The position numbers and the translations under genes were made by a program. The notes under the pieces were generated by a model that saw only the letters and a list, made by a program, of their open reading frames with translations, did not search any database and was not told the DNA's origin. A stretch of 64,000 nucleotides of DNA from Arcobacter suis CECT 7833 (lineage in GTDB: Bacteria > Campylobacterota > Campylobacteria > Campylobacterales > Arcobacteraceae): assembly GCF_003544815.1 (NCBI RefSeq), contig NZ_CP032100.1:1116001-1180000 (forward strand), read 5' to 3'. Shown here piece by piece: positions 3,491-39,532 of this stretch; position 1 is the stretch's first letter; each line of letters begins with the position of its first letter.

Positions 3491-3517
3491 ATTATCTCCC
3501 TTATTTAAATATAATTT

Positions 3518-3523
3518 ATTTTA
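3518..3523 (-). promoter_or_regulatory. Candidate -10 for minus-strand Usp
   Basis: TAAAAT on the minus strand, 27 nt upstream of the start codon at 3490, preceded by AT-rich sequence as is usual for sigma-70 promoters in Campylobacterota, which lack a conserved -35. Confidence 0.4.
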
Positions 3524-3584
3524 GCATAAGATTTTATATATTGATACTGTTTCTTATTATTAAAGCAGTTTAAGATTTTTTCGA

Positions 3585-3590
3585 TATAAT
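3585..3590 (+). promoter_or_regulatory. -10 box of the CPA1 antiporter gene
   Basis: TATAAT preceded by a T-rich stretch, 37 nt before the ATG at 3628. The ribosome site AAGGAAG is at 3618-3624. Together with the minus-strand promoter near 3520 this makes a divergent promoter region of about 137 bp. Confidence 0.6.
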
Positions 3591-3627
3591 CGCCATAATT
3601 TACGAAACTTATTAAAAAAGGAAGCCA

Positions 3628-5091: not shown

Positions 5092-5342
5092 AACTCCTCT
5101 TCTTCATCCTCAACATCACAACAGTAAATACATTTTTCATCAAAAAATGAGTATTCATCATAACAATAAAATTTATGACAACTTTCGCATTTAAAACAAT
5201 CATGCTCTTTTGATAGAATTTGTTCTAATTTTTCTTCAGTAATATTGTGAGTTTTAGCATACTCTTCAAAAAGTGCGATTACATGTTCATTCTCGTCGTT
5301 TTTTAACTCTTTTGATAAATCTTCTAAAGTTTCAATATCCAT
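5088..5342 (-). CDS. Small hypothetical protein with CxxC zinc-ribbon-like motifs
   Basis: 84 residues. An acidic helical N-terminus (about 1-45) is followed by a cysteine cluster, CFKCESC at about 49-55, then CYDEYSFFDEKCIYCC, ending in an acidic tail (DVEDEEEEF). The cysteine spacing suggests a metal-binding ribbon. It is preceded by an AAGG-type ribosome site and lies 13 nt downstream of the 67-residue gene, so the two are probably co-transcribed. Function unknown. Confidence 0.65.
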   Translation of the reverse strand: MDIETLEDLSKELKNDENEHVIALFEEYAKTHNITEEKLEQILSKEHDCFKCESCHKFYCYDEYSFFDEKCIYCCDVEDEEEEF

Positions 5343-5355
5343 GTTTTTTCCTTTT

Positions 5356-5559
5356 TTATAAATTCAAATTTTGTACTATTTTTTTTCTCATATTTGTTAT
5401 ATCAATAATTAATCTATCTTTTACTTCAATAGAAAATGAGTTGTTTTCTTTGAACACTTGAATTAAAACTTTTTCAAATTCTGTTTCATTTAGTTCTTTT
5501 GTCTCTTCAATTAATTTAAAAAATAGTAGTTTTATTTTTTCGTATTGATTCTCTTGCAT
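5356..5559 (-). CDS. Small hypothetical helical protein
   Basis: 67 residues, mostly charged helix with no cysteine and no signal peptide. A ribosome site AAAGG lies 9 nt before the ATG, and a CATAAT -10-like hexamer lies further upstream. It is the first gene of a two-gene minus-strand unit with the zinc-ribbon-like protein and is divergent from thiI. I do not recognise a family. Confidence 0.55.
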   Translation of the reverse strand: MQENQYEKIKLLFFKLIEETKELNETEFEKVLIQVFKENNSFSIEVKDRLIIDITNMRKKIVQNLNL

Positions 5560-5638
5560 AAATTAAGCCTTTGGTAAAAATGAGTGCGTATTATGTCAAA
5601 AAAAAATATAGAAAAAACTAAAAAAAAGGCTGTTATGT

Positions 5639-5644
5639 TATAAT
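5639..5644 (+). promoter_or_regulatory. -10 box of thiI
   Basis: TATAAT preceded by A/T tracts, 34 nt before the thiI ATG. AAGG at 5664-5667 is the ribosome site. No thiamine-type riboswitch architecture is visible in the short leader. Confidence 0.55.
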
Positions 5645-5677
5645 ATATAATAATTAAACAAATAAGGCTTTTAAATA

Positions 5678-7141
5678 ATGATTAATCAAGAGATCAAAAC
5701 ACAAAAATTTATAATTAAATATTTCACAGAAATAATGATAAAAGGCTCAACTGCAAAAAGACAGATGATTTCACAAGTGTATAATAATCTAGTAAATCTT
5801 TTATCAAAAATTTCAAAAGATATAACTATAAAAAAGTTTTTTGATAAGATAGAAGTAGTATGTCCAATTGAAGTAGTTGATATTGTAAGAATGAAACTTC
5901 TTGATACACCAGGAATCCAACAAATACTTGAAGCAATGCAATTTGATAATATGAATACTTTAGATGACATCAAAGTAAAAGTAAATGAAATGATGGCACA
6001 TGAAATACAAGGTAAATCTTTTGTAGTTAGATGTAAAAGAACAGGAACTCAAGAGTTCAAATCAACTCAAGTTGAACAAACTGTTGGTGGATATATGTTA
6101 GCAATGAATGACACAAAAGGTGTTGCTTTAAAAAATGCAGAAGTTACAATAAATATTGAACTTGTATTTGCACAATTAAATATAATTACTTATAAACACA
6201 TGGGAATGGGTGGATTTCCAATAGGAAGTCAAGGAAGTATTTTATCTCTTATGTCTGGTGGATTTGACTCAACAGTGGCCTCATATTTAACTATGAAAAG
6301 AGGAATAAAAACTCACTTTATTTTCTTTAATCTTGGCGGAATTGCACATGAAATTGGTGTAAAACAAGTAGCTTATTATCTATGGAATAAATTTGGAAGT
6401 TCTCATCGAGTTCAGTTTATTTCTGTTCCTTTTGATGATGTTGTAACTGAAATATTCAAAAGTGTAAGTGAACCATATATGGGAGTTATGTTAAAAAGAC
6501 TTATGTTAATAGCTTCTGAAAAAATAGCTGATACTATGAAAATTGATGCTCTTGTAACAGGTGAAAGTGTTGCCCAAGTTTCAAGTCAAACTTTAAGAAA
6601 CCTAGCTTTAATTGACCAAGCTACAAATAAACTTGTATTAAGACCACTTGCAATGATGAGTAAACCTGATATTATCGAAATTGCAAATAATATTGGAACA
6701 AGTAGATTTGCAGAATCAATGCCTGAGTATTGTGGAGTTATTTCAAAAAATCCAGTAACCCATGGAAATTATGACAGAATTGCTAGTGAAGCTAGAAGAT
6801 TTGATTATACGGTTTTAGATGAAGCTGTAAGAACATCTGTTTTTGTAAATGTAGATGAAATTGCTGAAGATATTGGTGAAATAGGGCAAATGGATGTAGT
6901 TAGTGATTTAAATGGTGCAGATTATACAGTTATTGATATTAGACAAAGTGCTGATTGTATAGAAACTTCTGTTGAAACACTAAAAATTCCATTTTACAAA
7001 TTAAAAAGTGAGTTTAAAAAACTTCCACAAGATAAAACTTATCTGTTTTATTGTGACAAAGGAATTTTAAGTCAACTTCATGCTCAATTTTTAAGAGATA
7101 GTGAAAATTATACAAATATTAAAGTTTATAGACCATTATAA
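5678..7141 (+). CDS. thiI: tRNA 4-thiouridine synthase ThiI with rhodanese domain
   Basis: 487 residues, close to the 482 of the E. coli enzyme. Domains in order: ferredoxin-like/THUMP (about 1-165), PP-loop pyrophosphatase with SGGFDS at about 193-198, and a C-terminal rhodanese (about 395-487). The rhodanese active cysteine is in FYCDKG (about residue 459), and the partner cysteine for the catalytic disulfide is in MPEYCGVIS (about 350). It transfers sulfur to U8 of tRNA and, in some bacteria, to ThiS for thiamine synthesis. Monocistronic, with its own promoter. Confidence 0.95.
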   Translation: MINQEIKTQKFIIKYFTEIMIKGSTAKRQMISQVYNNLVNLLSKISKDITIKKFFDKIEVVCPIEVVDIVRMKLLDTPGIQQILEAMQFDNMNTLDDIKVKVNEMMAHEIQGKSFVVRCKRTGTQEFKSTQVEQTVGGYMLAMNDTKGVALKNAEVTINIELVFAQLNIITYKHMGMGGFPIGSQGSILSLMSGGFDSTVASYLTMKRGIKTHFIFFNLGGIAHEIGVKQVAYYLWNKFGSSHRVQFISVPFDDVVTEIFKSVSEPYMGVMLKRLMLIASEKIADTMKIDALVTGESVAQVSSQTLRNLALIDQATNKLVLRPLAMMSKPDIIEIANNIGTSRFAESMPEYCGVISKNPVTHGNYDRIASEARRFDYTVLDEAVRTSVFVNVDEIAEDIGEIGQMDVVSDLNGADYTVIDIRQSADCIETSVETLKIPFYKLKSEFKKLPQDKTYLFYCDKGILSQLHAQFLRDSENYTNIKVYRPL

Positions 7142-22653: not shown

Positions 22654-23376
22654 ATGAAAAAAATTATGTTTTTGCTTTTTGCTACGCTTTATGCTAATGC
22701 CCATTTTCTGACATTTATGTCAAATACAGACAATGTATCAAATCCAAAACAAACAAAAGTTGATTTAGATATATCTTTTATTCATCCTTTCGAACAAACT
22801 GGAATGATTATGGAAAAACCAGAAGTTTTTGTAAATTCTAAAAATAACAAATTAAATCTAACCCAAACTACAAAATTAGACCACAAAGCTTGGAGTAGTT
22901 CTTATGATATAAAAGCTCCTGGGGTTTATAAGTTTTTTGTACAGCCTCAACCATATTTTGAACCAGCAGAAGAAAAATTTATCTCTCATGTTCCAAAATT
23001 GATTGTTAGCTCTTTTGGGCTTGAAGATGGTTGGGATGAACCTTTAGGTTTAAAATATGAGATTATTCCTATGACTAAACCTTTTGCTTTATATTCTGGA
23101 AATCTATTTCAAGGAAAAGTTTTGCACGATGGAAAACCAGCAGCTAATACAGAAGTTGAAGTAGAACTTTATAATGAATTTGGGCTAAAAGCTCCAAGTG
23201 ATGCTCATATAACTCAAGTTGTAAAAACAGATGAAAATGGTGTTTTTTCATTTGTTATGAACCACAAAGGTTGGTGGGGATTTGCAGCTTTAATCGAAGA
23301 GGGTGAATTAAAACATAGTGATGGAAAAATGTATCCAATTGAAAATGGTGCTTTAATTTGGGTAAAGGCTTACTAA
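22654..23376 (+). CDS. nikK: Periplasmic DUF4198 component of nickel ECF importer (NikK-like)
   Basis: 240 residues. A short signal peptide ends at ANA (about residue 16), giving a predicted mature start HFLTF. The body fits DUF4198: AHFLTFMSNTD, HKAWSSSYDIKAPGVYKFFV, and VLHDGKPAANTEVEVELYNE from an Ig-like carrier domain. In NikKMLQO operons this periplasmic partner accompanies the NikM permease. It lies 1 nt before nikM. The His-first mature N-terminus is a candidate Ni ligand (inference). Confidence 0.75.
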   Translation: MKKIMFLLFATLYANAHFLTFMSNTDNVSNPKQTKVDLDISFIHPFEQTGMIMEKPEVFVNSKNNKLNLTQTTKLDHKAWSSSYDIKAPGVYKFFVQPQPYFEPAEEKFISHVPKLIVSSFGLEDGWDEPLGLKYEIIPMTKPFALYSGNLFQGKVLHDGKPAANTEVEVELYNEFGLKAPSDAHITQVVKTDENGVFSFVMNHKGWWGFAALIEEGELKHSDGKMYPIENGALIWVKAY

Positions 23377-23377
23377 T

Positions 23378-23977
23378 ATGCATATAGCTGATGGTGTTTT
23401 AACTCCTGAAATTACAGCTGTTATAACAGCTGTTTCAGCTATTGCTTTTTATAAAGCAATTAAAACAATAAAAGAGGATGAAATACCATTAACTGCCGTT
23501 GCTAGTGCTATGTTTTTTATAGCTTCATTTATTCATGTTCCTTTTGGAGTTACTCAAATACATCTTATACTTTTGGGTGTAATTGGGATATTTCTAGGTT
23601 TTAGCAGTTTCATAGCTATTTTAATTGCTTTGATTTTACAAGCTTTACTTTTAGGATATGGTGGTGTTGTTTCTATTGGGGTTAATCTTTTTATTATGGC
23701 AGCACCAGCTGTGATTGTTTATTATATAAATAAAACAGAAATATTTCTAAAAATAAATGAGAAAATCAGATTTTTTTTAATAGGATTTTTAGGAGCATTT
23801 TTTGCAACTTTGTTTTTAGTAGCTATTTTATATTTCTCAAAAGCGCAGTATGAATGGGCGGCTTATAGTATATTTGGAGTTAATATATTTACTATGGTAA
23901 TTGAAGGCTTTGTAAGTATGTTTTTACTTATGTTTATCAAAAAGACCTATCCTAAGATTTTAAAAGGGTTGATTTGA
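23378..23977 (+). CDS. nikM: Nickel ECF transporter substrate-binding permease NikM/CbiM
   Basis: 199 residues with about six membrane segments. The N-terminus MHIADGVLTPE is the diagnostic CbiM/NikM motif, in which the Met-His amino end coordinates Ni(II) or Co(II). Nickel rather than cobalt is inferred from the NikK/NikL partners and the nearby hydrogenase genes. The stop overlaps the TTG start of nikL (TTGA). Confidence 0.85.
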   Translation: MHIADGVLTPEITAVITAVSAIAFYKAIKTIKEDEIPLTAVASAMFFIASFIHVPFGVTQIHLILLGVIGIFLGFSSFIAILIALILQALLLGYGGVVSIGVNLFIMAAPAVIVYYINKTEIFLKINEKIRFFLIGFLGAFFATLFLVAILYFSKAQYEWAAYSIFGVNIFTMVIEGFVSMFLLMFIKKTYPKILKGLI

Positions 23978-24393
23978 AAAAGGTATTTTTATTTTTACTA
24001 ATAGCTACTTCTTTATTTGCTCACAAAATAAATTTATTTGTAACAAATGAAGAAAATGGCGTAAATATTTACTCATATTTTGCAAGTGGAAATCCATGTA
24101 TAAACTGTAAATTGATTATTAAAAATGGTGAAAATGTAGTTTTAGAAGATAAGCTAGACGTTAATGGAAAATATCTTTATAGTTCAAAATATAAGGATAT
24201 TCAAGTTACAATAGACGCATCAGGTGGACATATTGCAAAACAAGATATTGTAGTTGAAAATATAAAAAATGAATCACTACAAACTCACCTAAAAGAAGAA
24301 AAAGAAAATGAACATATAAAAATCTTAATTTCATTGGTTTTAATAGGATTGATTTTTTATGTGTTAAAAATAGTAAAAAGGAAAAAACAATAA
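23974..24393 (+). CDS. nikL: NikL-like auxiliary subunit of nickel importer
   Basis: 139 residues from a TTG start overlapping the nikM stop. A signal peptide ends at LFA, giving a mature start HKINLF. A periplasmic domain with a Cys pair (NPCINCKL, about 41-48) and a C-terminal membrane anchor (about 115-132, then basic KRKKQ) follow. This topology fits NikL of NikKMLQO systems. The Cys pair might bind metal or form a disulfide (inference). Confidence 0.65.
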   Translation: MKKVFLFLLIATSLFAHKINLFVTNEENGVNIYSYFASGNPCINCKLIIKNGENVVLEDKLDVNGKYLYSSKYKDIQVTIDASGGHIAKQDIVVENIKNESLQTHLKEEKENEHIKILISLVLIGLIFYVLKIVKRKKQ

Positions 24394-24396
24394 TAT

Positions 24397-25035
24397 ATGA
24401 ATAACGAAGCTATAAAACTTATTGTTTCTTTACTTTTCTCTCTTTTTATAGCTTTTAGTTCTTTGGAGTATTTTTATATATTGCCTATATTATTGGTTTT
24501 ATTTTATGAGCAAAAAAACTTAATAAAGATATTTAAAAAACTATTTTTATTAAATTTTTTTATTTTAACTTTGGTTTTATTTGTAGCTTTTCAAGACCAC
24601 AAAATGGCAATTGAGCTGTTTTTTAGGACAAATCTAATCTTACTTTTTAATATCACCATTTTTTACAAATCAAAGGGGTATGATATTGTAAGGGGATTTA
24701 ATACTTTAAAAGTTTCGCCTAAATTTATCTCTATTTTTTATTTTACGATTTGTTTGATTGAGTATTTACTAAAAGAGTTTAAAAATATTAAAACAAGTTT
24801 AAAATCACGAGGTTTCAAAGCCCAAACTTCTATGTTTGTTTATCAAACCTTTGGTAATATTTTTGCTATGATGTTTATAAAAGCCATAAAAAAATCAGAA
24901 GATATGAGGCTTAGTATGATTGCAAGAGGTTTTAATTCACAAATATTTTTACTTGAAACAAACAAGGTTTCCATAAAAGATATTTTAGTTCTATTTTGTG
25001 TGGGAATTATTATTTTAATAAAGGTTTATATATGA
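24397..25035 (+). CDS. nikQ: Nickel ECF transporter membrane subunit (CbiQ/NikQ)
   Basis: 212 residues with four or five membrane segments. The ECF T-component signature, two Ala-Arg-Gly-like motifs that grip the ATPases, is seen as SLKSRGF (about 133-139) and MIARGF (about 174-179). No clear ribosome site; AGGAAAA lies 13 nt upstream. It overlaps the ATPase gene by 4 nt (ATGA). Confidence 0.8.
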   Translation: MNNEAIKLIVSLLFSLFIAFSSLEYFYILPILLVLFYEQKNLIKIFKKLFLLNFFILTLVLFVAFQDHKMAIELFFRTNLILLFNITIFYKSKGYDIVRGFNTLKVSPKFISIFYFTICLIEYLLKEFKNIKTSLKSRGFKAQTSMFVYQTFGNIFAMMFIKAIKKSEDMRLSMIARGFNSQIFLLETNKVSIKDILVLFCVGIIILIKVYI

Positions 25036-25685
25036 GTTGTTCACTAAATCTAAGAGCCATTTCATACAAAAATGAAGATAAAGATATTTTCAACGACATA
25101 TCTTTGAATTTAGGACATGAAGAAAAAATAGCAATCGTAGGTTCAAATGGAAGCGGTAAAAGCACACTTCTAAAAATCATCGCAGGATTAATAAATCCAA
25201 GTTCTGGTTATATAGAAGTTTTTCACGAAAAAATGAATAACTTAAAAGATTTTTCAAAATATAGAAGTGATATAGGATATTTACCCCAAGATGTAACAAA
25301 TCACTTTTTATGCCCAACAGTTATAGAAGATGTGATTTTTTCACTAAGAGCAAAAGGAGTTTCAAAAAATGAAGCTTTAATACAAGGTGAAGAGATTTTA
25401 AAAGAACTCAAAATAACTCACCTAAAAGATAGAGTGATTTTTGATTTAAGTGGAGGTGAACAAAAAATTGTAGCTCTCGCAGGACTTCTAATCCTAAAAC
25501 CAAAAATTCTACTTTTAGATGAACCCACAAATGCCCTAGATGAAGAGAGTGAAAAACGAATAGTAGAAATCCTAAACTCAATCAAAAAATCAATGATTAT
25601 AGTATCTCACCATAAAAGTTTTATAAATAATTTAACAAATAAAATTTATAAATTGGATTCAAAAGGTTTAGAATTATCAATTTAA
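25032..25685 (+). CDS. nikO: Nickel ECF transporter ATPase (CbiO/NikO)
   Basis: 217 residues from the ATG at 25032, which overlaps the nikQ stop; longer starts have no support. ABC ATPase motifs: Walker A GSNGSGKST (about 36-44), Q-loop LPQDV, signature DLSGGEQKIVAL, Walker B ILLLDEPTNALD, switch His in VSHHKSF. It powers the T-component for nickel uptake, and it is the last gene of the five-gene operon. Confidence 0.88.
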   Translation: MSCSLNLRAISYKNEDKDIFNDISLNLGHEEKIAIVGSNGSGKSTLLKIIAGLINPSSGYIEVFHEKMNNLKDFSKYRSDIGYLPQDVTNHFLCPTVIEDVIFSLRAKGVSKNEALIQGEEILKELKITHLKDRVIFDLSGGEQKIVALAGLLILKPKILLLDEPTNALDEESEKRIVEILNSIKKSMIIVSHHKSFINNLTNKIYKLDSKGLELSI

Positions 25686-30095: not shown

Positions 30096-30488
30096 ATGAA
30101 AATTGCAATTCCAGTAAAAGACGAAAATTTAACATTCTTTAGTAATGCAGGACATACTCCAAAATTCGCAATTTATGATTTAACAGGTTCAGGAATGTTC
30201 AGATCATTTAAATTAGATTCAGTAATAACAAATCCAAGAACTGATATAGACCACGACCATGCAGAAGAAGACCATGCTTGTGAGCACGGACACGATGATG
30301 AAGAACATATTGCAGAACACAATAAAATGGGTATGGCTTTAAGTGAATGCAGTTATATCGTTGTTAAAAAAGCTTGTAAAAATACAGCAAACTCATTTAC
30401 TTCACAAGGTATAAAACTTGTTAAATACAATGGTGAAGCACTAGATGTAAATACAATTTTAAAAGAGACTTCTGCTTCGTTTAAATAA
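30096..30488 (+). CDS. NifX/NifB-like (dinitrogenase cofactor domain) protein with His-rich insert
   Basis: 130 residues. The fold of the NifX/NafY/NifB-C family (iron-molybdenum cofactor-binding domain) is seen in MKIAIPVKDENLTFFSNAG...FAIYDL at the start and the C-terminal SFTSQGIKLVKYNGEALDV. An insert at about 52-75 is rich in His, Asp and Glu (DHDHAEEDHACEHGHDDEEH) and likely binds Ni or another metal. No nif genes are present; it lies just upstream of hypB, so a role in hydrogenase metallocentre assembly or metal storage is inferred. Confidence 0.7.
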   Translation: MKIAIPVKDENLTFFSNAGHTPKFAIYDLTGSGMFRSFKLDSVITNPRTDIDHDHAEEDHACEHGHDDEEHIAEHNKMGMALSECSYIVVKKACKNTANSFTSQGIKLVKYNGEALDVNTILKETSASFK

Positions 30489-30608: not shown

Positions 30609-31430
30609 ATGTGTAAAGATTGCGGTTGTGTAATAGCAGGACAAGAAAATCACCATCATCACCACGATGAACATGAGCATGGAATTGTTCATGAACATGA
30701 CCATCCACATGATAATACAACTTGGAGTACAACACACCAAGCAGCTCACGAAACACTTCATCATAACCCACAATTAAACGATGCAAAAACAATTTCTGTA
30801 ATCAAAAAAATACTTGATAAAAATGACCATGAAGCATCTCACAATAGAGCTCATTTTGACCAACACAAAGTTTTAGGAATAAATCTTATGTCAAGCCCAG
30901 GAAGTGGGAAAACTACACTTTTAGAAAATCTAGTTGATATGGTAGATTTTAAATTTGCAGTTGTAGAAGGTGATTTAGAAACTTCAAGGGATGCCGATAG
31001 ATTAAAAGCCAAAGGAATAAATGCAGTTCAAATACAAACAGGAAGTGCATGTCACTTAGATGCATTTATGGTTCACAAAGGTTTACATGATATTAAGTTA
31101 GCTGATATTGATGTTTGTTTTATTGAAAATGTAGGAAATCTAGTATGTCCAGCTTCTTATGATGTGGGAACTCACTTAAATATTGTTCTTGTTTCAGTTC
31201 CTGAAGGGGAAGATAAGATTGCAAAATATCCAGTTATGTTTAGATGTGCTGATTTAATCCTTATTACTAAAACAGATTTACTTCCATACTTTGAATATGA
31301 TATTGAAAAAGAGAAGATGGAAGCTAGAAAACTAAAACCAAATGTGGATATTTTAGAAGTAAATATCAAAGATAAACAATCACTTCAAAATGTAATTGAT
31401 TGGATTAATTTCAAAAGAAAGATGAGATAG
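30609..31430 (+). CDS. hypB: Hydrogenase nickel-insertion GTPase HypB
   Basis: 273 residues. The N-terminus has the high-affinity nickel motif CKDCGC (2-7) followed by a His-rich stretch (about 16-40) able to store Ni. The GTPase domain starts at about 90: P-loop SSPGSGKTT, VEGDLETSRDADR and the G-domain metal site GSACHLDA. G4-type NKxD appears as TKTDL near 222. It hands nickel to the hydrogenase large subunit with HypA. It opens a hypB-C-D cluster; hypC starts 5 nt after it. Confidence 0.96.
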   Translation: MCKDCGCVIAGQENHHHHHDEHEHGIVHEHDHPHDNTTWSTTHQAAHETLHHNPQLNDAKTISVIKKILDKNDHEASHNRAHFDQHKVLGINLMSSPGSGKTTLLENLVDMVDFKFAVVEGDLETSRDADRLKAKGINAVQIQTGSACHLDAFMVHKGLHDIKLADIDVCFIENVGNLVCPASYDVGTHLNIVLVSVPEGEDKIAKYPVMFRCADLILITKTDLLPYFEYDIEKEKMEARKLKPNVDILEVNIKDKQSLQNVIDWINFKRKMR

Positions 31431-31435
31431 AAAAT

Positions 31436-31717
31436 ATGTGTTTATCAATACCTTCAAAAATAAAAAGCATAGACACTGAAATGAATACTTGTGTTGTTGA
31501 CACAATGGGAGTTGAAAGAAGTGCTAGTTTAGATTTAATAGACCAAGATGTAGTGATTGGAGATTATGTTTTAATTCATATTGGTTTTGCTATGAATAAG
31601 ATTGACGAAGTTGATGCTTTGGAGTCTCTAAAAGTCTATGCTGAGATAATAGAAAAGATGGAAGAACAAGATAGATTAGAAGCAATTGAGCAATCTGATA
31701 ATTGCCCAAATAGATAA
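31436..31717 (+). CDS. hypC: Hydrogenase maturation chaperone HypC
   Basis: 93 residues, usual HypC/HupF length. It begins MCLSIPSKI: Cys2 is the essential residue that carries the Fe(CN)2CO unit with HypD. A beta-barrel core follows (VVDTMGVERSASLDLI, then VGDYVLIHIGFAMNKID). It lies between hypB and hypD with 3-5 nt gaps, so it is part of the same mRNA. Confidence 0.95.
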   Translation: MCLSIPSKIKSIDTEMNTCVVDTMGVERSASLDLIDQDVVIGDYVLIHIGFAMNKIDEVDALESLKVYAEIIEKMEEQDRLEAIEQSDNCPNR

Positions 31718-31720
31718 CAC

Positions 31721-32845
31721 ATGGAAAAAGAATTACAACTAAAAGATTTATATGATGGTTTTAGAGATGCAAAAACTATAAAAGCATTTAAACAAATCAT
31801 TGATGAAGACCTAAAAGATTATGATGGAATCATAAATATTATGGAAGTGTGTGGAGGACATACACACACTATTATGAAGTATGGAATACCACAATTAATA
31901 AATAAAAAAATAAACTTCATACATGGACCAGGTTGTCCTGTTTGTGTAATGCCAAAAGAGAGAATTGATAGTGCTTATGCTTTAAGCTTACAAGAGAATG
32001 TAATACTTGTAACTCTAGGAGATATGATAAAAGTTCCAGGAAGTAATGGAAGTTTACAAAATGCAAGAAGCCAAGGTGCAGATGTAAGATTTGTTTATTC
32101 TCCAATGGAGTGTATAAAAATAGCAAATGAAAATCCAAATAAAACAGTAGTCTTTTTTGCAATAGGATTTGAAACTACAACTCCAATGACTTGTGCATTA
32201 CTTGAACAAGTAATAAAACACAATATTACAAATATACTTTTTCATATAAACCACATTACAGTTCCAGAAGTTATGCAAGTATTAGTGCAAAGTAGTGATT
32301 GTAAAATAGATGCTTTTTTAGGCCCATCACATGTTAGTATCATAAGTGGAAGTAAAATTTACGAAGAATTCCCAAGAGATTATAACAAACCAGTAGTTGT
32401 GGCAGGTTTTGAACCAGTTGATGTGATGCAATCAATCTCTATGATAGTAAAACAGTTCAAAGAAAAAAGAAGTGACCTAGAAGTAGAGTACAAACGACTT
32501 GTTTCATATGAGGGAAATTTAAAAGCCCAAGACTTAATAAATAAATACTTCAAAAAAGTTCCTTTTAAATTTAGAGGAATTGGAACAGTTGAAAATAGTG
32601 GATATGAACTAAAAGACGAGTATGACAAATACAATGCAAAAATAGTATATAAAGAAATCTTACCTACAAAAGAAGTAAAAGATAACAAAGCTTGTAGATG
32701 TCCAGATATTCTAAAAGGAATAGCAAAACCACACGACTGTAAAATCTTTGGAACTGTATGTACTCCAACAAATCCTATTGGTTCTTGTATGGTGAGCTCA
32801 GAGGGTGCATGTAGTGCTTATTATAAATATGGTAATCTTTTATAA
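31721..32845 (+). CDS. hypD: Hydrogenase maturation protein HypD
   Basis: 374 residues. Conserved cysteine motifs: MEVCGGHTHTI (about 41-51), GPGCPVCVMP (about 66-75), and the 4Fe-4S ligands in CRCPDILKGIAKPHDC plus FGTVC and GACSAYYKYG at the C-terminus. It assembles the Fe(CN)2CO ligand set with HypC. In related genomes hypE usually follows directly; here hypE is about 3.9 kb further on. Confidence 0.96.
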   Translation: MEKELQLKDLYDGFRDAKTIKAFKQIIDEDLKDYDGIINIMEVCGGHTHTIMKYGIPQLINKKINFIHGPGCPVCVMPKERIDSAYALSLQENVILVTLGDMIKVPGSNGSLQNARSQGADVRFVYSPMECIKIANENPNKTVVFFAIGFETTTPMTCALLEQVIKHNITNILFHINHITVPEVMQVLVQSSDCKIDAFLGPSHVSIISGSKIYEEFPRDYNKPVVVAGFEPVDVMQSISMIVKQFKEKRSDLEVEYKRLVSYEGNLKAQDLINKYFKKVPFKFRGIGTVENSGYELKDEYDKYNAKIVYKEILPTKEVKDNKACRCPDILKGIAKPHDCKIFGTVCTPTNPIGSCMVSSEGACSAYYKYGNLL

Positions 32846-32862
32846 AACGTAAGGCTTAAATT

Positions 32863-33711
32863 ATGAAAAAGATTGCATTTATTGGCGTTGGAGTTATGGG
32901 TAAATCAATGGTTTTAAATCTAATGAAAAAAGGGTTTGAAGTAAGTGTTTATGCAAGGAATAAACAAAAGATTGAGGATATATTAAAATCTGGTGCAATT
33001 TTTTGTGACACTATAGAATCTTGTGTACAAAACAAAGATGCAGTTATTACAATAGTTGCTTATCCAAAAGATGTTGAAGAAGTATACTTATCTCAAAAAG
33101 GTATTTTAAATAGTGCTAATAAAAATACTTATTTAATAGATATGACAACAACAAGTCCAAACTTAATAATTGATATATATAACAAAGCAAAAGAAAAAGG
33201 ATTAAAGTTTTTAGATGCTCCCGTTTCAGGTGGAGATATTGGAGCAAAAAATGCAATTTTATCTATAATGGTTGGTGGTAAAGAAGAAGATTTTAATGCT
33301 TGTAAAGATATTTTTGAAGCCTTAGGTACAACAGTTATCTATGAGGGAAAATCAGGAAGCGGACAACACACAAAAATGGCAAACCAAATAGCAATCGCTG
33401 GAATCATGGCAGGAATTAGTGAAGCTATTACTTATGGAAAAGAAGTTGGATTAGACATTGAAACTATGTTGAAAAGTATTAGTAATGGTTCTGCATCAAG
33501 TTTTCATATGACAAATACAGCTCCAAAAATGAATCAAAGAGATTTTGAAGCAGGTTTTTATATAAAACACATGGTAAAAGATTTAAAAATAGCAAATGAA
33601 GAAGTCCCAACTCTAAAAGTTTTAAAAGATGTATTAGAAATGTATGAAACCTTAGAAAAAAATAGCGATGGAGACTTGGGAACACAAGCTATTTGTAAAT
33701 ATTACGAGTAA
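32863..33711 (+). CDS. 3-hydroxyisobutyrate dehydrogenase-family NAD(P) oxidoreductase
   Basis: 282 residues. N-terminal Rossmann motif GVGVMGKSMVLNLMKKGF (about 6-23), substrate motif DAPVSGGDIGAKN (about 117-129), and catalytic Lys in GSGQHTKMANQ (about 165-175). This fits the beta-hydroxyacid dehydrogenase family (GarR, HIBADH, glyoxylate/succinic semialdehyde reductases). It starts 17 nt after hypD and is the first of four genes between hypD and hypE. Substrate unknown; no link with hydrogenase is known. Confidence 0.85.
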   Translation: MKKIAFIGVGVMGKSMVLNLMKKGFEVSVYARNKQKIEDILKSGAIFCDTIESCVQNKDAVITIVAYPKDVEEVYLSQKGILNSANKNTYLIDMTTTSPNLIIDIYNKAKEKGLKFLDAPVSGGDIGAKNAILSIMVGGKEEDFNACKDIFEALGTTVIYEGKSGSGQHTKMANQIAIAGIMAGISEAITYGKEVGLDIETMLKSISNGSASSFHMTNTAPKMNQRDFEAGFYIKHMVKDLKIANEEVPTLKVLKDVLEMYETLEKNSDGDLGTQAICKYYE

Positions 33712-33742
33712 AAAATAAAAGAAAGAATAAGTGTAATCTATA

Positions 33743-34894
33743 ATGTCAAATATAATATATGAATATGAAGAGATAAGTGAAAAAGAATATGAAAAATTAA
33801 GAAAACATATTATAGATAATTCATCTCTTCATAAATATTTTAAACTTGATTGGAAAACATTAAAAGCTAGACAATATTGTGGAATCTTAAATTTTGATAA
33901 TCAAGATTTTTATATCTTGCCAAAAATTGCAAATCATAATGATAAACAAAATCTAAATATATTTATCTATATGTTAATGTATGCTTATAATATAAATTTA
34001 TCAAATGAACAAATAGCCTCTTGCCAAAATCAAGAGCACTCTATATTAGAAGTTTTTGTTCAAATGTTTGCATCAAATCTTTTAAATGAATTAAAAAAAG
34101 GTATATACAAAGAGTATATTACTATGCAAGATAATCTTCCAGTTTTAAAAGGAAAATATCTAATAAATGAAAATTTAAAATACAACTTCACAAAAAATAA
34201 AATCTATTGTGAATATGATGAATTTAGTCCAAATAATAGTCTAAATCAATTTTTTCTATATGCAATAAAATATCTTCAAAAATTTGTAAAAGATAAAAAG
34301 CTTTTAAAACAGTGCGAACTAATATTTGATGAGGTTGAATATAAGTCAGTAGATATAAATAAATTAGATAGGATTCATTTTAGTAGATTAAATCAAAGAT
34401 TCAAAACTAGCTTTGAAATAGCTATTTTACTTTTGAAACAATCAATTCCACTGTTTAGTCAAGATAAAAAATCATTCGCTTTTTTGTTTGATATGAATAT
34501 ATTGTTTGAGAAGTTTATAGCTAGACTTGTAAAAGAGTTAGATGATAATGCAAAAATACAAAATCAAGATAATTTCAATGATTTGACATTAAAGCCAGAT
34601 ATAATACTAAAAAAACAAATAATAGATACAAAATATAAAAAAATCAAATCAATAGAAGATATAAAACAAAGTGATAAACTCCAAGCTTTTGCTTATGGTG
34701 TAAATTATGGAGTTGATAATGTAATGCTTTTGTATCCTAGACATTTGGATGATATAAAATATGATTTAGTTTTAGGAAGATATGATAAAAAAGTTGAGTT
34801 AAAAATAAGAAGTATTGATTTGAATTTTATGGGAAATGATTATAAAGAGTATATTGATGAAATTAGAAAAAGAGTGGAGATTTTAAATGGATAG
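33743..34894 (+). CDS. mcrC: McrC-family restriction endonuclease subunit
   Basis: 383 residues. An N-terminal DNA-binding-like region is followed by the PD-(D/E)xK nuclease core: FDMNILFEKFI (about 245-255), then LKPDIIL with Asp286 and IIDTKYKK with Asp295 and Lys297, spacing as in McrC nucleases. The 8-nt overlap with mcrB shows translational coupling. It precedes mcrB here, the reverse of the E. coli order. The weak ribosome site is AAGAAAG. It would be the cleaving subunit of a type IV (modification-dependent) system. Confidence 0.82.
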   Translation: MSNIIYEYEEISEKEYEKLRKHIIDNSSLHKYFKLDWKTLKARQYCGILNFDNQDFYILPKIANHNDKQNLNIFIYMLMYAYNINLSNEQIASCQNQEHSILEVFVQMFASNLLNELKKGIYKEYITMQDNLPVLKGKYLINENLKYNFTKNKIYCEYDEFSPNNSLNQFFLYAIKYLQKFVKDKKLLKQCELIFDEVEYKSVDINKLDRIHFSRLNQRFKTSFEIAILLLKQSIPLFSQDKKSFAFLFDMNILFEKFIARLVKELDDNAKIQNQDNFNDLTLKPDIILKKQIIDTKYKKIKSIEDIKQSDKLQAFAYGVNYGVDNVMLLYPRHLDDIKYDLVLGRYDKKVELKIRSIDLNFMGNDYKEYIDEIRKRVEILNG

Positions 34895-36398
34895 AAAAGA
34901 ATTATTTAGAGAATGGTTAAAAAATAATGGAATGTCAGCAAGTGTTCAAAGTAATTATCCTTTATATATTGATGAATATATTCCAGCTATTTTAAAAGGC
35001 ATAAATTTAGAGGTTAATAGTTTATTTGAAATAACAGATTTGAAAAAATTAGAAGATATTTTAAATAAAATACAGATAGATTTAAAAGAAATTAATCTAG
35101 AAAAAAGTAGTTTTCCATCAGCTTCATTAAAAAAATATATAGAATATATTAAATCATCATATAAAATTAGTAAAGACGAAAAATACAATATGAAAACAAA
35201 AAATATAATGCTTTATGGTGCACCTGGGGTTGGGAAAACTCATAATTATAAAAGATTAATTACTATGATAGAAGATGGTAATGATGAAAAAACTATTTTT
35301 GATACTATCTCTAAAAATGAGATTACAAATGATTTTGATAATTCTATTTTTGAAGATATAAAAAAAGAAAAAAGAATAGAGTTTGTAACTTTTCATCAAA
35401 GTTATTCTTATGAAGATTTTATTGAAGGTTTTAGACCAAATGAAGAGGGAAAATTAGAATTAGAAGATGGTATTTTAAAAAAAACATCTCAAGATGCAGA
35501 AGTAAATTTAAAAAAAAGTGAAATTGATATAGAAAAAGAGAATATAAATCTAGATGAATTAATATTAAAGTTTACTAATTATGTTCAAGATAGTTTAGAT
35601 AATGATAAAGAGTTTTCATTAGAAAAAAAAGTTACTGTTGAAGGTATAAATAACAAAAATGCTTTTTTACTAGGTGGTTCAATTAAATCAGCTCAAAGAT
35701 TGACACCCGATATTATAAAAAGAGATTATGAAGATTTTAAAGATGGATATATAGCAAAATATGAAGATGTAAAACCAACAAGAGAATCAAAAAGTACATA
35801 TCATGGAAATGCAAGATACTATTTTATGTTATATAAAAAGATTTATGAATTTGAGAAAAGTTTGAATATTAATGAAATAAAACAAGAAAAAGAAAATTTA
35901 AAAAACTTCTATATAGTAATAGACGAAATAAACAGAGGAAATATCTCTAAAATCTTTGGGGAACTTATCACGCTTATAGAAGAAGATAAAAGAGGAAAAA
36001 AAGAGTATGAGGTAACATTACCATATTCTAAAAAGCCTTTTTTAATTCCTGAAAATCTTTATATCATTGCTACTATGAACTCAACTGATAAATCTATTGC
36101 AACTATTGATATAGCTTTGAGAAGAAGATTTACATTTTTAAAAATGAAGCCAAATTTAGATTTAGTTCCAGAAATTGCAAAAGTATTATTTGAAAAGATA
36201 AATGAACATATTTCAAAAACTATAAATGAAGATTATAAACTAGGGCATAGTTACTTTATGAATATAGTAGATGATAAAGATTTAGAGTTTGTGAAAAAAT
36301 ACAAAATCCAACCATTACTTGAAGAGTATTTTTATGGTGATGAAGAAAACTATAAAAAAGCAATAGCAATCTTAAATATAAAAGAAGATAACCAATGA
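34887..36398 (+). CDS. mcrB: McrB-family AAA+ GTPase
   Basis: 503 residues. Walker A GAPGVGKT at 111-118, the McrB mark FHQSYSYEDFIEGFRP at 169-184, Walker B IDEINRGN at 345-352, GTP-type ATMNSTDKS at 396-404, arginine finger ALRRRF at 411-416. The first about 90 residues look like an integrase-type SAM-like helical domain (FREWLKNNG...ASLKKYIEYI), not the DUF3578 5-methylcytosine reader of E. coli McrB. An insert of about 110 residues (222-330) lies between the Walker motifs. What it recognises is unclear. Overlaps mcrC (8 nt) and mazG (4 nt). Confidence 0.85.
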   Translation: MDRKELFREWLKNNGMSASVQSNYPLYIDEYIPAILKGINLEVNSLFEITDLKKLEDILNKIQIDLKEINLEKSSFPSASLKKYIEYIKSSYKISKDEKYNMKTKNIMLYGAPGVGKTHNYKRLITMIEDGNDEKTIFDTISKNEITNDFDNSIFEDIKKEKRIEFVTFHQSYSYEDFIEGFRPNEEGKLELEDGILKKTSQDAEVNLKKSEIDIEKENINLDELILKFTNYVQDSLDNDKEFSLEKKVTVEGINNKNAFLLGGSIKSAQRLTPDIIKRDYEDFKDGYIAKYEDVKPTRESKSTYHGNARYYFMLYKKIYEFEKSLNINEIKQEKENLKNFYIVIDEINRGNISKIFGELITLIEEDKRGKKEYEVTLPYSKKPFLIPENLYIIATMNSTDKSIATIDIALRRRFTFLKMKPNLDLVPEIAKVLFEKINEHISKTINEDYKLGHSYFMNIVDDKDLEFVKKYKIQPLLEEYFYGDEENYKKAIAILNIKEDNQ

Positions 36399-36751
36399 AT
36401 ATAGAACAAATAGAACAACGAATCCAAAAATTCTCAGACGATAGAAACTGGGAAAGTTTTCATAATCCAAAAAATCTAGTTATGGCATTAACAGGTGAAG
36501 TAGGAGAACTAAATGAAATATTTCAATGGCTAAATTTTGAAGAGTCTTTAAATCTACCTGATGATGTATTAGAGCATACAAAAGAAGAAGTTGCAGACGT
36601 GGCTATTTATCTTCTTAGACTTTGTATGAAACTTGACATTAACCTTGAAGATGCCATTATGAATAAAATGACTAAGAACGAAAAGAAATATCCAGTTGAA
36701 ACATCTCAAGGTGGAAGTAAAAAATATTCTAAGAGTAGGGAAGATAAATAA
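36395..36751 (+). CDS. MazG-like nucleotide pyrophosphohydrolase
   Basis: 118 residues, all-alpha NTP-PPase (RS21-C6/dCTPP1-like). The metal-binding motifs are GEVGELNEIFQW (Glu-x2-Glu at about 34-37) and EEVADVAIYLL (Glu-x3-Asp at about 67-71). It should hydrolyse dCTP or other (modified) nucleotides to monophosphates. Its ATG overlaps the mcrB stop, and hypE starts on the next base after its stop. It is therefore locked into the transcript, perhaps as a nucleotide-control part of the McrBC module (inference). Confidence 0.82.
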   Translation: MNIEQIEQRIQKFSDDRNWESFHNPKNLVMALTGEVGELNEIFQWLNFEESLNLPDDVLEHTKEEVADVAIYLLRLCMKLDINLEDAIMNKMTKNEKKYPVETSQGGSKKYSKSREDK

Positions 36752-37750
36752 ATGACAAAAACAATAACACTAGCCCATGGAAATGGTGGAGCTGAAAACA
36801 ATGAGCTTATAAACAAAGTATTTTATAATGCTTTTAAAAATGAGATATTAGAGAAAAGTGAAGATGCAGCTGTTATTCAAAATGGAACATTAGCTTTTAG
36901 TACGGATTCATTTACAGTTAGTCCTTTGTTTTTTAGTGGAGCAGATATTGGAAAATTAGCCATTTGTGGAACTTGCAATGACTTAGCCATGATGGGAGCG
37001 AAACCAAAATATCTTACTTGCTCAGTTATCATTGAAGAGGGATTTGAAGTAGAACAACTTGAAAGAATTGTAGCTTCTATGAAAAAAGAGCTTGAAGTAA
37101 ATGGAGCTATTGTTGTAAGTGGAGATACAAAGGTAGTTCCCAAAGGTGCTGTTGATAAAATCTTCATAAACACTACAGGAATTGGAGAAATCTTATACAA
37201 AGACATTAGCTCAAACAATATAACTACAGAAGATGTAATTCTAGTAAATAGAGACATTGGAGCTCACGGAGCTACTATTTTTGCTGCACGTGAGGGAATG
37301 GATATGAATTCAGAGCTTAAAAGTGATTGTAACTCTTTATATCCACAAGTGAAAGCTTTGATTGATGCAGGTATTAAAATAACAGCTTTAAGAGATGCCA
37401 CAAGAGGTGGAGTTAGTGCTGTTTTAAATGAATGGGCAAAACAATCAAATGTTTGTATAGAAGTAGAAGAAGAAAAAATTCCAGTATGTGATGAGGTAAA
37501 AGGAATTTGTGAAATGTTAGGTTTTGAAGCAACAAATCTTGCAAATGAGGGAACTTTTGTTCTTGCAATTCCACAAGAATTTGCAGCTAAAGCTATTGAA
37601 GTTTTACAAACATTTCCAGAAGCTTCAAAGGCTTGTATTATTGGAAAGGTAACTAAACAATATTCTCAAAAAGTAATACTAAATAGTTCTTGGGGAACAA
37701 AAAGATTTTTAGATACACCAACTGGTGAACTTCTTCCAAGGATTTGTTAA
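36752..37750 (+). CDS. hypE: Hydrogenase maturation protein HypE
   Basis: 332 residues of the AIR-synthase-like fold. Motifs: AHGNGGAENNELI at the start, FSTDSFTVSPLFFSGADIGKLA (about 49-70), and a C-terminal PRIC, whose Cys carries the thiocarboxamide that becomes the cyanide ligand. The start codon immediately follows the mazG-like stop. HypF, its partner, is not in the window. It overlaps hypA by 1 nt (TAATG). Confidence 0.96.
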   Translation: MTKTITLAHGNGGAENNELINKVFYNAFKNEILEKSEDAAVIQNGTLAFSTDSFTVSPLFFSGADIGKLAICGTCNDLAMMGAKPKYLTCSVIIEEGFEVEQLERIVASMKKELEVNGAIVVSGDTKVVPKGAVDKIFINTTGIGEILYKDISSNNITTEDVILVNRDIGAHGATIFAAREGMDMNSELKSDCNSLYPQVKALIDAGIKITALRDATRGGVSAVLNEWAKQSNVCIEVEEEKIPVCDEVKGICEMLGFEATNLANEGTFVLAIPQEFAAKAIEVLQTFPEASKACIIGKVTKQYSQKVILNSSWGTKRFLDTPTGELLPRIC

Positions 37751-38091
37751 TGCACGAATATTCAATAGTTCAATCTTTATTAGAAAGTTGTGAAGAACAC
37801 GCTCGAACAAATGACGCAAAAAAAGTTACAAAAGTAGTAGTGAAAATTGGAGTTTTAAGTGGAGTTGAACCCGATTTACTTCAAACTGCTTTTGATACTT
37901 TTAAAGAACAAACAGTCTGTCATGATGCAGTTTTTTTGATAAATCATCAAAAAGTGGTCATTGAGTGTTTTGATTGTAATACAACTTCAACTTTGGAAAA
38001 ACATGAGTTCTCATGTCCAAAATGCCAAAGTGTAAATATCAAAGTAATTGATGGCGAAGATATGTATCTTATGAGTTTAGAGTTAGAATAA
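37750..38091 (+). CDS. hypA: Hydrogenase nickel chaperone HypA
   Basis: 113 residues from the ATG at 37750, giving the canonical MHEYSIVQSL whose His2 binds Ni. The zinc site is CFDCNT...FSCPKCQS (two CxxC pairs, about 73-95). It passes nickel to HypB and then to hydrogenase. It is the last gene of the hyp transcript. Confidence 0.95.
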   Translation: MHEYSIVQSLLESCEEHARTNDAKKVTKVVVKIGVLSGVEPDLLQTAFDTFKEQTVCHDAVFLINHQKVVIECFDCNTTSTLEKHEFSCPKCQSVNIKVIDGEDMYLMSLELE

Positions 38092-38153
38092 AATCTATAT
38101 AAAAAGTTATTTTTTAAAAATTAAACAACAAAGTATTTATTTTTCCTTAAAGT

Positions 38154-38159
38154 TATGAT
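38154..38159 (+). promoter_or_regulatory. Candidate -10 of diguanylate cyclase gene
   Basis: TATGAT, 38 nt before the ATG at 38198; ribosome site AAAGG at 38186-38190. Confidence 0.35.
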
Positions 38160-38197
38160 ATTATTTTTCTTATAGAAGCTAATTTAAAGGCTTTAGA

Positions 38198-39532
38198 ATG
38201 AAAAAAATAACTTTGGAAAGATTACTTTATAAAAATTATTTGAAAACTTCTCTTGTATCAATATTTTTGATTGAGCTGTTTTTAGTATTTTTTTATTTTA
38301 TAATTCATAAAAACATGATTAATAAAAGTTCTGAATTTTTATTAAATGATGTTGAAAATTCAATCTCTTTAATTATAGAAAATCACTCACAAACTGTGGA
38401 TGAAGAGTCTATAAAAACTCAATCTTTAGAACATTTACTTAATCATTTTATTAAAATCAAGTTACCATATAAAGGTAAAATTCTTATCATTAATAATTTT
38501 GGAGAAATATTATTTATAGATGAAAATATAAAAGAATTATTAGATATTCATACAAATAAATCAAATATATTAAATCATCAAAATTTAAAAATTGTGAATT
38601 ATTTTAAAGAAATAATGAAAGAGAAAAATCTTAATAAAATACTATTAAATGAAAAAAAATATATTTTATTCTCAAAAAGAATTCAAATGAACTCCTTATA
38701 TGTTGTAGCTTTTATAGATGAAAATAATATTTTAAATAAAATTAATGATTTAGAAGAATATTATGAAAAATTAGCTTATATCGTCATATTTTCTGTATTG
38801 ATTTTTTATATAATGTTTTTCTTTTATCTTTCTTTTAAAGCAAAAGATTTTGTAGATAGAATAAATGAACCTTTGTTAAATATAATTGAATTTACTAAAA
38901 ATTTAGGAATAAAAAAAGATATAAAAAATCTTGAATCTTGTGGAATTTTTGAAATAGATAGATTAAGTTCTAATTTTAATAATATGATTATTGAATTAGA
39001 TATGCGTACAAACAGACTTATTTTAGAAGAAACAAAAAGAATATATCAAGAAAAATTAGCAAATACAGATCCTTTGACAGGTGCGTATAATAGAAGATAT
39101 TTAAATGAATTTTCTTATGAATATCTAAAAATTGTAAAAAGAGAAAATAAAGATTTATCTTTGTTATTACTTGATTTAGATGATTTTAAAAATATTAATG
39201 ATACTTTTGGACATGAAATAGGGGATATTGTAATAAAACAATTGGTTGAGATATCAAAAAGTAGTATAAGAGAGAGTGATTTGATTATTAGATTTGGTGG
39301 AGATGAATTTATAATTTTATTACCTAATACAAATATCCAAAGTGCAAGATTTGTTGCAAATAAAATCATTAATAAAATAACTGAATATAACAAAAATAAA
39401 GAGTTCAATTTTTCAATAAGTGTTGGAATTTCACATTATCAAATAGGAGATAATTCAATAGATAATATAATTTTAAGAGCAGATAAATCTTTGTATAAAG
39501 CCAAAAAAATAGGAAAGAATTGCGTTGTTTGA
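38198..39532 (+). CDS. Membrane-bound diguanylate cyclase (GGDEF)
   Basis: 444 residues. Membrane segments at about 17-38 and 190-212 enclose a periplasmic sensor region. A HAMP-like linker leads to a complete GGDEF domain (about 285-444; ADTDPLTGAYNRRY-type start, RFGGDEFIILL as the active site, end ADKSLYKAKKIGKNCVV). No inhibitory RxxD site is obvious. It makes cyclic di-GMP. Monocistronic. Confidence 0.9.
   Translation: MKKITLERLLYKNYLKTSLVSIFLIELFLVFFYFIIHKNMINKSSEFLLNDVENSISLIIENHSQTVDEESIKTQSLEHLLNHFIKIKLPYKGKILIINNFGEILFIDENIKELLDIHTNKSNILNHQNLKIVNYFKEIMKEKNLNKILLNEKKYILFSKRIQMNSLYVVAFIDENNILNKINDLEEYYEKLAYIVIFSVLIFYIMFFFYLSFKAKDFVDRINEPLLNIIEFTKNLGIKKDIKNLESCGIFEIDRLSSNFNNMIIELDMRTNRLILEETKRIYQEKLANTDPLTGAYNRRYLNEFSYEYLKIVKRENKDLSLLLLDLDDFKNINDTFGHEIGDIVIKQLVEISKSSIRESDLIIRFGGDEFIILLPNTNIQSARFVANKIINKITEYNKNKEFNFSISVGISHYQIGDNSIDNIILRADKSLYKAKKIGKNCVV

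Follow-up and report, generated by a model that had tools for sequence, protein, structure and literature searches.

The window analysed here, a stretch of 64,000 nt from the Arcobacter suis CECT 7833 contig NZ_CP032100.1 whose positions serve as coordinates throughout, carries a dehydrogenase gene (DH), the two genes of a McrBC-type restriction system (mcrC and mcrB, jointly mcrCB) and a mazG-like gene between hypD and hypE of the hydrogenase maturation (hyp) operon. Comparison of this junction among relatives makes it likely that the hypD–hypE junction is a slot for gene exchange inside the operon, in which no mobility genes were detected. In the Arcobacteraceae and part of a Sulfurimonas-type family the slot is filled by unrelated small gene sets that are nearly always co-directional with the operon, and sister species with similar flanks carry different cargo. 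Fixed walls, a strand lock, turnover of the cargo and swaps of domains within McrB are the features that emerge from the aligned loci.

Contents of the hypD–hypE junction

Open reading frames (ORFs) were taken from a simple longest-ORF caller with a minimum length of 50 aa, or 75 aa for the junction counts, and gaps and small genes are approximate; each species was represented by one genome. Within the genus of the window hypE was found in 26 of 31 genomes, and the hyp regions were compared. The junction counts omit G019, where the contig is cut, and G017, which lacks hypE on its contig and is kept as an mcrCB carrier on the species tree. The junction is filled in 21 of the 25 cases that can be read end to end, and every one of the 59 ORFs inserted there (75 aa or longer) has the orientation of the hyp genes. 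A mazG gene is present in 21 of these junctions, DH in ten and mcrCB in eight. Exactly the four genes of the window are found in four, and two of those (the window itself and G029) have them in the order of the window. The sequence-only reading of the window had regarded the genes as a defence module acquired within an operon that is contiguous in relatives, and had taken the same four genes in all relatives as the sign of an ancestral presence; no such general sharing is seen.

The remaining occupants in the genus comprise a PemK/MazF-type toxin pair, YhcG/DUF1016 nucleases, Bro-N proteins, a KAP-type nucleoside triphosphatase (NTPase), a pentapeptide protein, a DUF5677 protein and unknown ORFs. 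Among the slot ORFs, those of 518, 478 and 236 aa have no family match in Pfam, PADLOC or NCBIfam, while the 408-aa protein of locus L050 matches only DUF5677 of Pfam. Ten cargo proteins from slots other than that of the window were compared with PADLOC, where four matched candidate families (YhcG PDC-S02, KAP PDC-S49, RhuM/Fic PDC-S23 and ATPase PDC-S27) and six matched none.

In the genus the mazG gene, which encodes the DCTPP1-like pyrophosphatase, has almost become fixed next to hypE, standing directly 5′ of it, or one cargo gene apart (L050), in 21 of the 25 genomes, with or without mcrCB. It accompanies mcrCB in all eight readable slots with mcrCB, and a mcrC–mcrB–mazG unit recurs in G026 (L078) in a hemC-like/isochorismatase-type setting, as would be expected if mcrC, mcrB and mazG, with or without DH, had entered as one mobile defence unit and been placed under useful hydrogenase regulation. 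However, mazG is also found in 13 of the 17 readable slots without mcrCB, and no mazG-like ORF was called in the mcrCB hyp slots outside the genus (L094, L131, L156–L159, L162 and L181). DH, too, is found without mcrCB and on either side of it, the cargo spans varied functions (a toxin pair, a YhcG nuclease, a glutamine amidotransferase, a pentapeptide protein and a dehydrogenase), and the mcrCB lineage also stands by addAB-, murG-, accC-, cob-, dtd- and tail-type genes, as judged by eye. Entry as one such unit therefore appears improbable, and the single inserted module of the sequence-only reading is not borne out, since mazG and DH vary independently of mcrCB, the order of DH differs and mcrCB comes and goes. 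Because of the same mazG counts, within and beyond the genus, a partnership between mcrCB and the DCTPP1-like pyrophosphatase was considered but is not claimed.

Across the family hypE was found in 83 of 104 genomes. The hypD–hypE junction is filled in 40 of 75 cases, as against 0 of 73 for hypB–hypC, 1 of 74 for hypC–hypD and 2 of 64 for hypE–hypA (plus nine HypX-like genes), that is, 3 of 211 for the three other junctions with HypX-like genes set aside. Outside the genus of the window 19 of 50 hypD–hypE junctions are filled, part of them with a glutamine amidotransferase-type gene of several genera that is not defence-like; 42 of the 47 inserted ORFs in these other genera run with the hyp strand, and the five that run against it all belong to L122 and L123. 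At least six empty junctions of the family (L080, L100, L106, L127, L128 and L130) consist of a 4-nt ATGA overlap of hypD with hypE, for which reason a contiguous hypD–hypE is taken as the ancestral state. Homologues of DH at E<1e-60 occur in 13 of the 104 genomes, from three genera, and all 13 lie in hypD–hypE slots. Homologues of mazG occur in 69 of the 104; outside the genus they are mostly 50–63% identical and far from hypE, and a gene of near-identical type was seen in or by the slot in G083, G045 and G072.

The amidotransferase-type gene, of class I and about 239 aa, occupies the junction in L099, L107, L109, L111, L112, L115 and L116 (with a Pfam match in L099 only) and in four of these seven loci begins on the base after the hypD stop. 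Two look-alike proteins, of 478 aa (L060, 2695–4128) and 445 aa (L122, 6179–7513), sit in the same slot in two genera, their starts being similar by eye.

In a class sample of 150 genomes, 148 have both hypD and hypE. The two genes lie less than 200 nt apart in 88 of these, 0.2–12 kb apart in 24 and elsewhere in 36, so that the contiguity in relatives expected by the sequence-only reading applies to the class sample but fails in the window's own genus. The 24 intermediate gaps fall in families f1 (7/8), f2 (8/47), f3 (2/55), f5 (3/6) and f7 (4/10). A gap of about 1.7 kb recurs in f2 (G183, G195, G199, G203, G225, G231 and G245). The idea of acquisition is sustained in so far as defence genes occupy a junction at which most of the sampled relatives have hypD and hypE adjacent, and leave the reading flow unbroken; it does not extend to one acquired module.

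Turnover between sister species

Changes in slot content were counted on a species tree of PriA from 30 genomes and compared with shuffled labels. The mcrCB pair changes eight times (26 scored, nine carriers; shuffled 7.69, standard deviation 0.89) and mazG four times (26 scored, 22 carriers; shuffled 3.77), and DH changes six times (25 scored, ten carriers; shuffled 8.04, with 20 of 200 shuffles as low). Replacement can be followed between sister species. Where G026 has mcrCB, G015 has a KAP-type NTPase gene, between flanks that are 98.8 and 99.1% identical; G003 has mcrCB and G013 the 518-aa gene, with flanks 95% identical, and G013 still contains about 37 nt of mcrC and 16 nt of mcrB; and G002 has mcrCB where G006 has the PemK/MazF-type toxin pair, with flanks about 90% identical. 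Remnants of mazG are present in G016 and G023 and, by eye, in G024. Between the window and L052, the corresponding locus of G029, synonymous divergence (dS) is 0.17 for mcrC and 0.21 for hypE and 0.36–0.40 for hypB, hypD, DH and mazG. Such unevenness along the locus fits an exchange by homologous recombination through the hyp flanks.

The remnants of mazG and mcrC, and the fact that DH changes less often than in most shuffles, would also be accounted for if the ancestor of the genus had possessed DH, mcrCB and mazG and different species had lost different parts. The mcrC genes of the genus hyp slots do form a well-supported group, together with two hemC-site copies and one Sulfurovum hyp locus, as such a history would predict. 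Loss does not readily explain a gene order that varies between DH–mcrCB and mcrCB–DH, the replacement of mcrCB by unrelated cargo in a sister with 99% flanks, the eight mcrCB changes on the tree or an mcrC dS between the window and L052 that is about half that of hypB, hypD, DH and mazG, and it seems an unlikely history for the slot.

The restriction genes of the slot

By their motor motifs, PF10117 match and PD-(D/E)xK nuclease, the McrB and McrC of the window are assigned to McrBC type IV restriction. The nuclease gene mcrC (33743..34894, + strand; PF10117, E 4e-57) is the first of the pair and overlaps mcrB by 8 nt (34887..34894). The AAA+ GTPase motor is encoded by mcrB (34887..36398, +; AAA_5 in Pfam) and has the Walker A motif GAPGVGKT, the Walker B motif IDEINRGN and MNSTD as its NxxD motif, of which Asn398 and Asp401 are invariant in 32 aligned McrB. 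In McrC, Pro285-Asp286, Asp295 and Lys297 are invariant in 33 aligned sequences. Structures of known McrB are matched in phmmer (6ut3, E 6e-53; 6hz4, E 1e-39), and the McrC profile matches the McrC chain 6ut5_G with E 7e-42. An AlphaFold2 model of McrB (mean predicted local distance difference test score 77.9, predicted template modelling score 0.58) has a separate alpha/beta element at residues 222–325, and the top Foldseek hits of this model in the PDB are McrB of Thermococcus and E. coli (6ut4/6ut5; best E 6e-18, template modelling score 0.41 by query length). The NxD hallmark of CoCoNuT systems is absent from the window McrB, which carries NxxD. The N-terminal methylcytosine domain of the E. 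coli protein, DUF3578 (ADAM), was found in none of the 32 McrB at E<=0.001; this domain defines the E. coli McrB type and not the entire McrBC family. In PADLOC, consulted for signs of a defence island, the window McrB matches REase_II models (E 6e-12), and DH, mcrC and mazG are without a match.

While the motor of McrB is conserved, with a median pairwise identity of 61%, the N-termini of the 32 proteins fall into eight sequence clusters, 433 of 496 pairs having no similarity at E<1e-3, and the nine from hyp slots of the genus represent four of these clusters. In the window this variable region, which putatively confers specificity, comprises residues 1–102 (34887..35192, +). Between the window and L052 it is 100% identical and the proteins remain near-identical to about residue 184, after which an insert in the GTPase domain (residues about 185–330; 35439..35876, +) is replaced and the remainder is again highly similar.

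The ratio of non-synonymous to synonymous substitution (dN/dS) of mcrC is 0.31–0.32 in three pairs, pointing to purifying selection on this gene. That the slot mcrCB is a decaying or repurposed passenger and not a working defence, as internal stops in other copies of the lineage (L164 and L169) and an mcrB dN/dS of up to 0.85 in one pair might suggest, is very doubtful in view of the intact genes of the window, the invariant motor and nuclease residues, the mcrC ratios and N-termini that diversify while the motors do not.

The mcrCB lineage beyond the slot

A match to mcrC, close and distant types together, occurs in 34 of 104 family genomes, and at E<1e-50 in at least 28 of 397 class genomes, a figure based on scoring the few top candidates of each genome. 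From a scan of named genomes the best 80 of 195 relatives were retained, at 79 loci. In this set those of at least 37% identity bear Campylobacterota names, including Arcobacter, Aliarcobacter, Sulfurimonas, Sulfurovum, Sulfuricurvum and Sulfurospirillum, save for one contig labelled Parcubacteria and one labelled 'bacterium', and the remainder are 29–33% identical. The mcrC locus is hyp-linked in 19 of 74 distinct cases, 11 from Arcobacteraceae and eight from other families, Sulfurimonas-type genomes among them. On a quick mcrC tree, 18 of whose 67 forks are weak, the hyp label (19 of 70) changes at least seven times compared with a shuffled mean of 17.0; the hyp location is thus clustered, yet has been entered or left repeatedly.

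No same-strand hyp gene lies within 7 kb at the other 55 of the 74 distinct loci, some of which are cut by contig ends. Host genes at these were named from translations judged by eye and not by family searches, as was HypX; recurring settings are addB-like neighbours, murG–DedA, recQ, accC, hemC and a tail-type operon, with cob- and dtd-type genes also seen. The control of defence by the hydrogenase, raised as a possibility from the window alone, finds no support as a special link, given these 55 loci and the position of the NiFe hydrogenase large-subunit genes at 1.094–1.106 Mb, some 42–53 kb before hypD at 1.148 Mb. A tie of defence specifically to the hydrogenase was rejected on the same loci, the mixed cargo and the use of other operons by the lineage. 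Any regulation shared with hyp could be a consequence of position and need not have been selected.

Both neighbours are co-directional with mcrCB in 45 of the 56 loci that have mcrB and a neighbour on each side and in 27 of the 38 without hyp, against a background of 508 of 961 genes; with gaps limited to 150 nt the figures are 36 of 56, 21 of 38 and 424 of 961. Close joins to the next gene are also found, with mcrB overlapping or abutting hypE (ATGACTAA) in L156 and L181 and doing so at a truncated hypE-like start in L157. Between mcrB and the intact hypE of L157 (2385–3233) lie this truncated start, a nucleotidyltransferase-like small ORF and a HepT-like protein (Pfam). In L171/L226 (G303:C115; Campylobacteraceae BB28) mcrCB at 3302–6054 is set with gaps of 2–5 nt in what by eye is a contractile-tail or injection-type operon. 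In the Sulfurimonas-type genomes of L184, L186, L189 and L198 mcrCB comes after an addB-like gene, with other small ORFs intervening in L186 and L198, and in L186 and L189 it precedes an addA/recB-like gene, again by eye. The second mcrC–mcrB–mazG set of G026 (L078, 3452–6482) lies between hemC-like and isochorismatase-type genes, and the genome has the hyp copy as well.

Layout of the locus

All genes from hypB to hypA, slot genes included, are on the + strand. Upstream in the host operon are hypB and hypC (30609..31717; Pfam/NCBIfam), followed by hypD (31721..32845; PF01924, E 3e-148; TIGR00075) as the left wall of the slot. The first cargo gene, DH (32863..33711), begins 17 nt after hypD and is separated from mcrC by 31 nt; its product, with the NAD_binding_2 and NAD_binding_11 domains (PF03446/PF14833), is a generic beta-hydroxyacid dehydrogenase that falls under the cut-off of every NCBIfam model matched. 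The pair mcrC (cargo 2a) and mcrB (cargo 2b) is followed by the mazG-like gene (cargo 3; 36395..36751; PF12643), which overlaps mcrB by 4 nt (ATGA) and encodes a putative MazG-like/DCTPP1-type nucleotide pyrophosphatase whose nearest PDB type is RS21-C6/DCTPP1 (2a3q, 6sqw; phmmer E 8e-23). The junction of mazG with hypE, the right wall (36752..37750; TIGR02124, E 6e-136), reads TAAATG, the hypE start following the mazG stop without an intervening base, and hypA (37750..38091, start approximate) lies downstream in the host operon. The four genes between hypD and hypE, the 8- and 4-nt overlaps and the abutment to hypE are thus as first read from the window. A 130-aa ORF at 30096–30488 precedes hypB, recurs in several genomes of the genus and has no Pfam match, and CbiM/CbiQ/CbiO-like genes for nickel or cobalt uptake, with translations judged by eye, lie upstream of hyp at 22654–25685.

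Promoter-like sites between 29300 and 38300 are at chance level (49 found, 54.9 expected). In the same range four terminator-like sites were found where 1.8 were expected, the sole one on the + strand being within hypE and none on this strand being inside the slot. No tRNA was found in the 64-kb window, to which the tRNA search was confined, and no outstanding flanking repeat in 31700–38200. None of the four slot genes of the window is an integrase by Pfam, and an integrase or transposase family is matched by none of the 20 scanned cargo proteins of 73 listed cargo ORFs. An integrase- or tRNA-borne island is unsupported, there being no integrase among the scanned cargo, no tRNA in the window and no outstanding flanking repeat.

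Discussion

It would seem probable that homologous recombination with imported DNA, by way of hypD on one side and mazG/hypE on the other, is the main route by which passengers of the hypD–hypE slot are exchanged. A passenger would be kept only if its strand and spacing leave the expression of hypE intact, and would probably be expressed by read-through from the hyp promoter; co-transcription is suggested by the shared strand, by the spacing and by a slot in which no terminator-like site was found on that strand. In the restriction system itself the GTPase ring of McrB would recognise modified, foreign DNA, guided by its exchangeable N-terminal and inserted domains, and McrC would then cut this DNA. 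A role in restricting modified phage DNA is suggested by what is known of the family and by C. jejuni, where a strain deleted for mcrB became sensitive to 17 of 43 phages, most of them with reduced plating (PMC8713573). This McrBC comes from the same bacterial class, has McrB N-termini that vary between strains and restricts phages.

Like the McrBC type IV systems of E. coli K-12 and T. gammatolerans, as treated in PMC11090510, the window proteins pair an AAA+ GTPase with Walker motifs and NxxD with a PF10117 PD-(D/E)xK McrC, encoded by adjacent genes. That paper, on CoCoNuT systems, holds that McrB is usually the upstream gene and that insertions in the GTPase domain of McrB likely encode specificity domains. 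The lineage of the window differs from these systems in lacking a DUF3578 (ADAM) match in 32 members and in being embedded in host operons. For the pyrophosphatase, DCTPP1/RS21-C6 dCTP pyrophosphatases are the nearest structural type by sequence; hydrolysis of 5-methyl-dCTP by RS21-C6/DCTPP1 is mentioned in PMC10742078 and an affinity of DCTPP1 for modified dCTP in the abstract of PMC7162842. The link of the mazG-like protein to mcrCB, by contrast, is inconsistent across slots. Neither type II nor type III restriction systems are counted in the genome paper of A. butzleri (PMC2147049), and the term Mcr is absent from its main text.

The slot itself resembles the homologous-recombination hotspots described in PMC5635113 in its core-gene walls, its high turnover, the absence of an integrase or transposase among the scanned cargo and sisters that differ inside the walls. 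Hotspots without mobility genes are there proposed to be exchanged by double homologous recombination at the flanking core genes. The hypD–hypE slot is different in lying inside a tightly packed enzyme-maturation operon with strand-locked cargo. The arrangement is best read as a variant of the known hotspots without mobility genes, one that lies within an operon and whose cargo includes a defence system of a known kind; among the matches listed from open-licence literature, mostly titles and the openings of abstracts, none describes hypD–hypE cargo or McrBC in a hyp operon.

Several observations weigh against an exchange slot of this kind. The junctions of G017 and G019 are cut by contig ends. 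In f3, 52 of 55 hypD–hypE junctions are adjacent, so the slot is not universal, and gaps of 0.2–12 kb also occur in f2 (mostly about 1.7 kb) and f5. Outside Arcobacteraceae L160 has mcrCB at hypC–hypD, and in L140 mcrCB is solitary, beside conjugation-type genes. Away from hyp the co-directional enrichment over background is moderate only. DH tracks the species tree more than mcrCB does and, as the genus hyp-slot mcrC genes also group together, some cargo may have been passed on vertically within the slot. The uneven dS between the window and L052 means that breakpoints fall inside the slot too. The dN/dS of mcrB, at 0.30, 0.53 and 0.85 in three pairs, is less uniform than that of mcrC, though diversifying N-termini above conserved motors would raise dN in mcrB as well.

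A wider proposal, put forward only tentatively, is that Campylobacterota keep fixed, strand-locked cassette slots in housekeeping operons, hypD–hypE foremost but also at addB, murG–DedA, recQ, accC and hemC, and that an McrC-first McrBC lineage without a promoter of its own moves among them, its targeting domains being swappable. Since the ends of the cassettes overlap or abut the next host gene, the translation of that metabolic gene and of the passenger before it may be coupled. Were this coupling true, hydrogenase maturation would suffer from a frameshift in the defence gene, which would hold the passenger in place.

Defence genes are usually sought in islands, prophages and integrase-bound hotspots, from which a slot in a metabolic operon differs. 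An exchange slot at hypD–hypE, strand-locked and with contents replaced between sisters, suggests how anti-phage genes could be carried without a promoter or mobility genes of their own. As a short locus that can be amplified by polymerase chain reaction, the junction would serve for finding new cargo. It also makes testable whether read-through of the operon is enough for restriction, and whether hydrogenase maturation is tolerant of its passenger or dependent on it.

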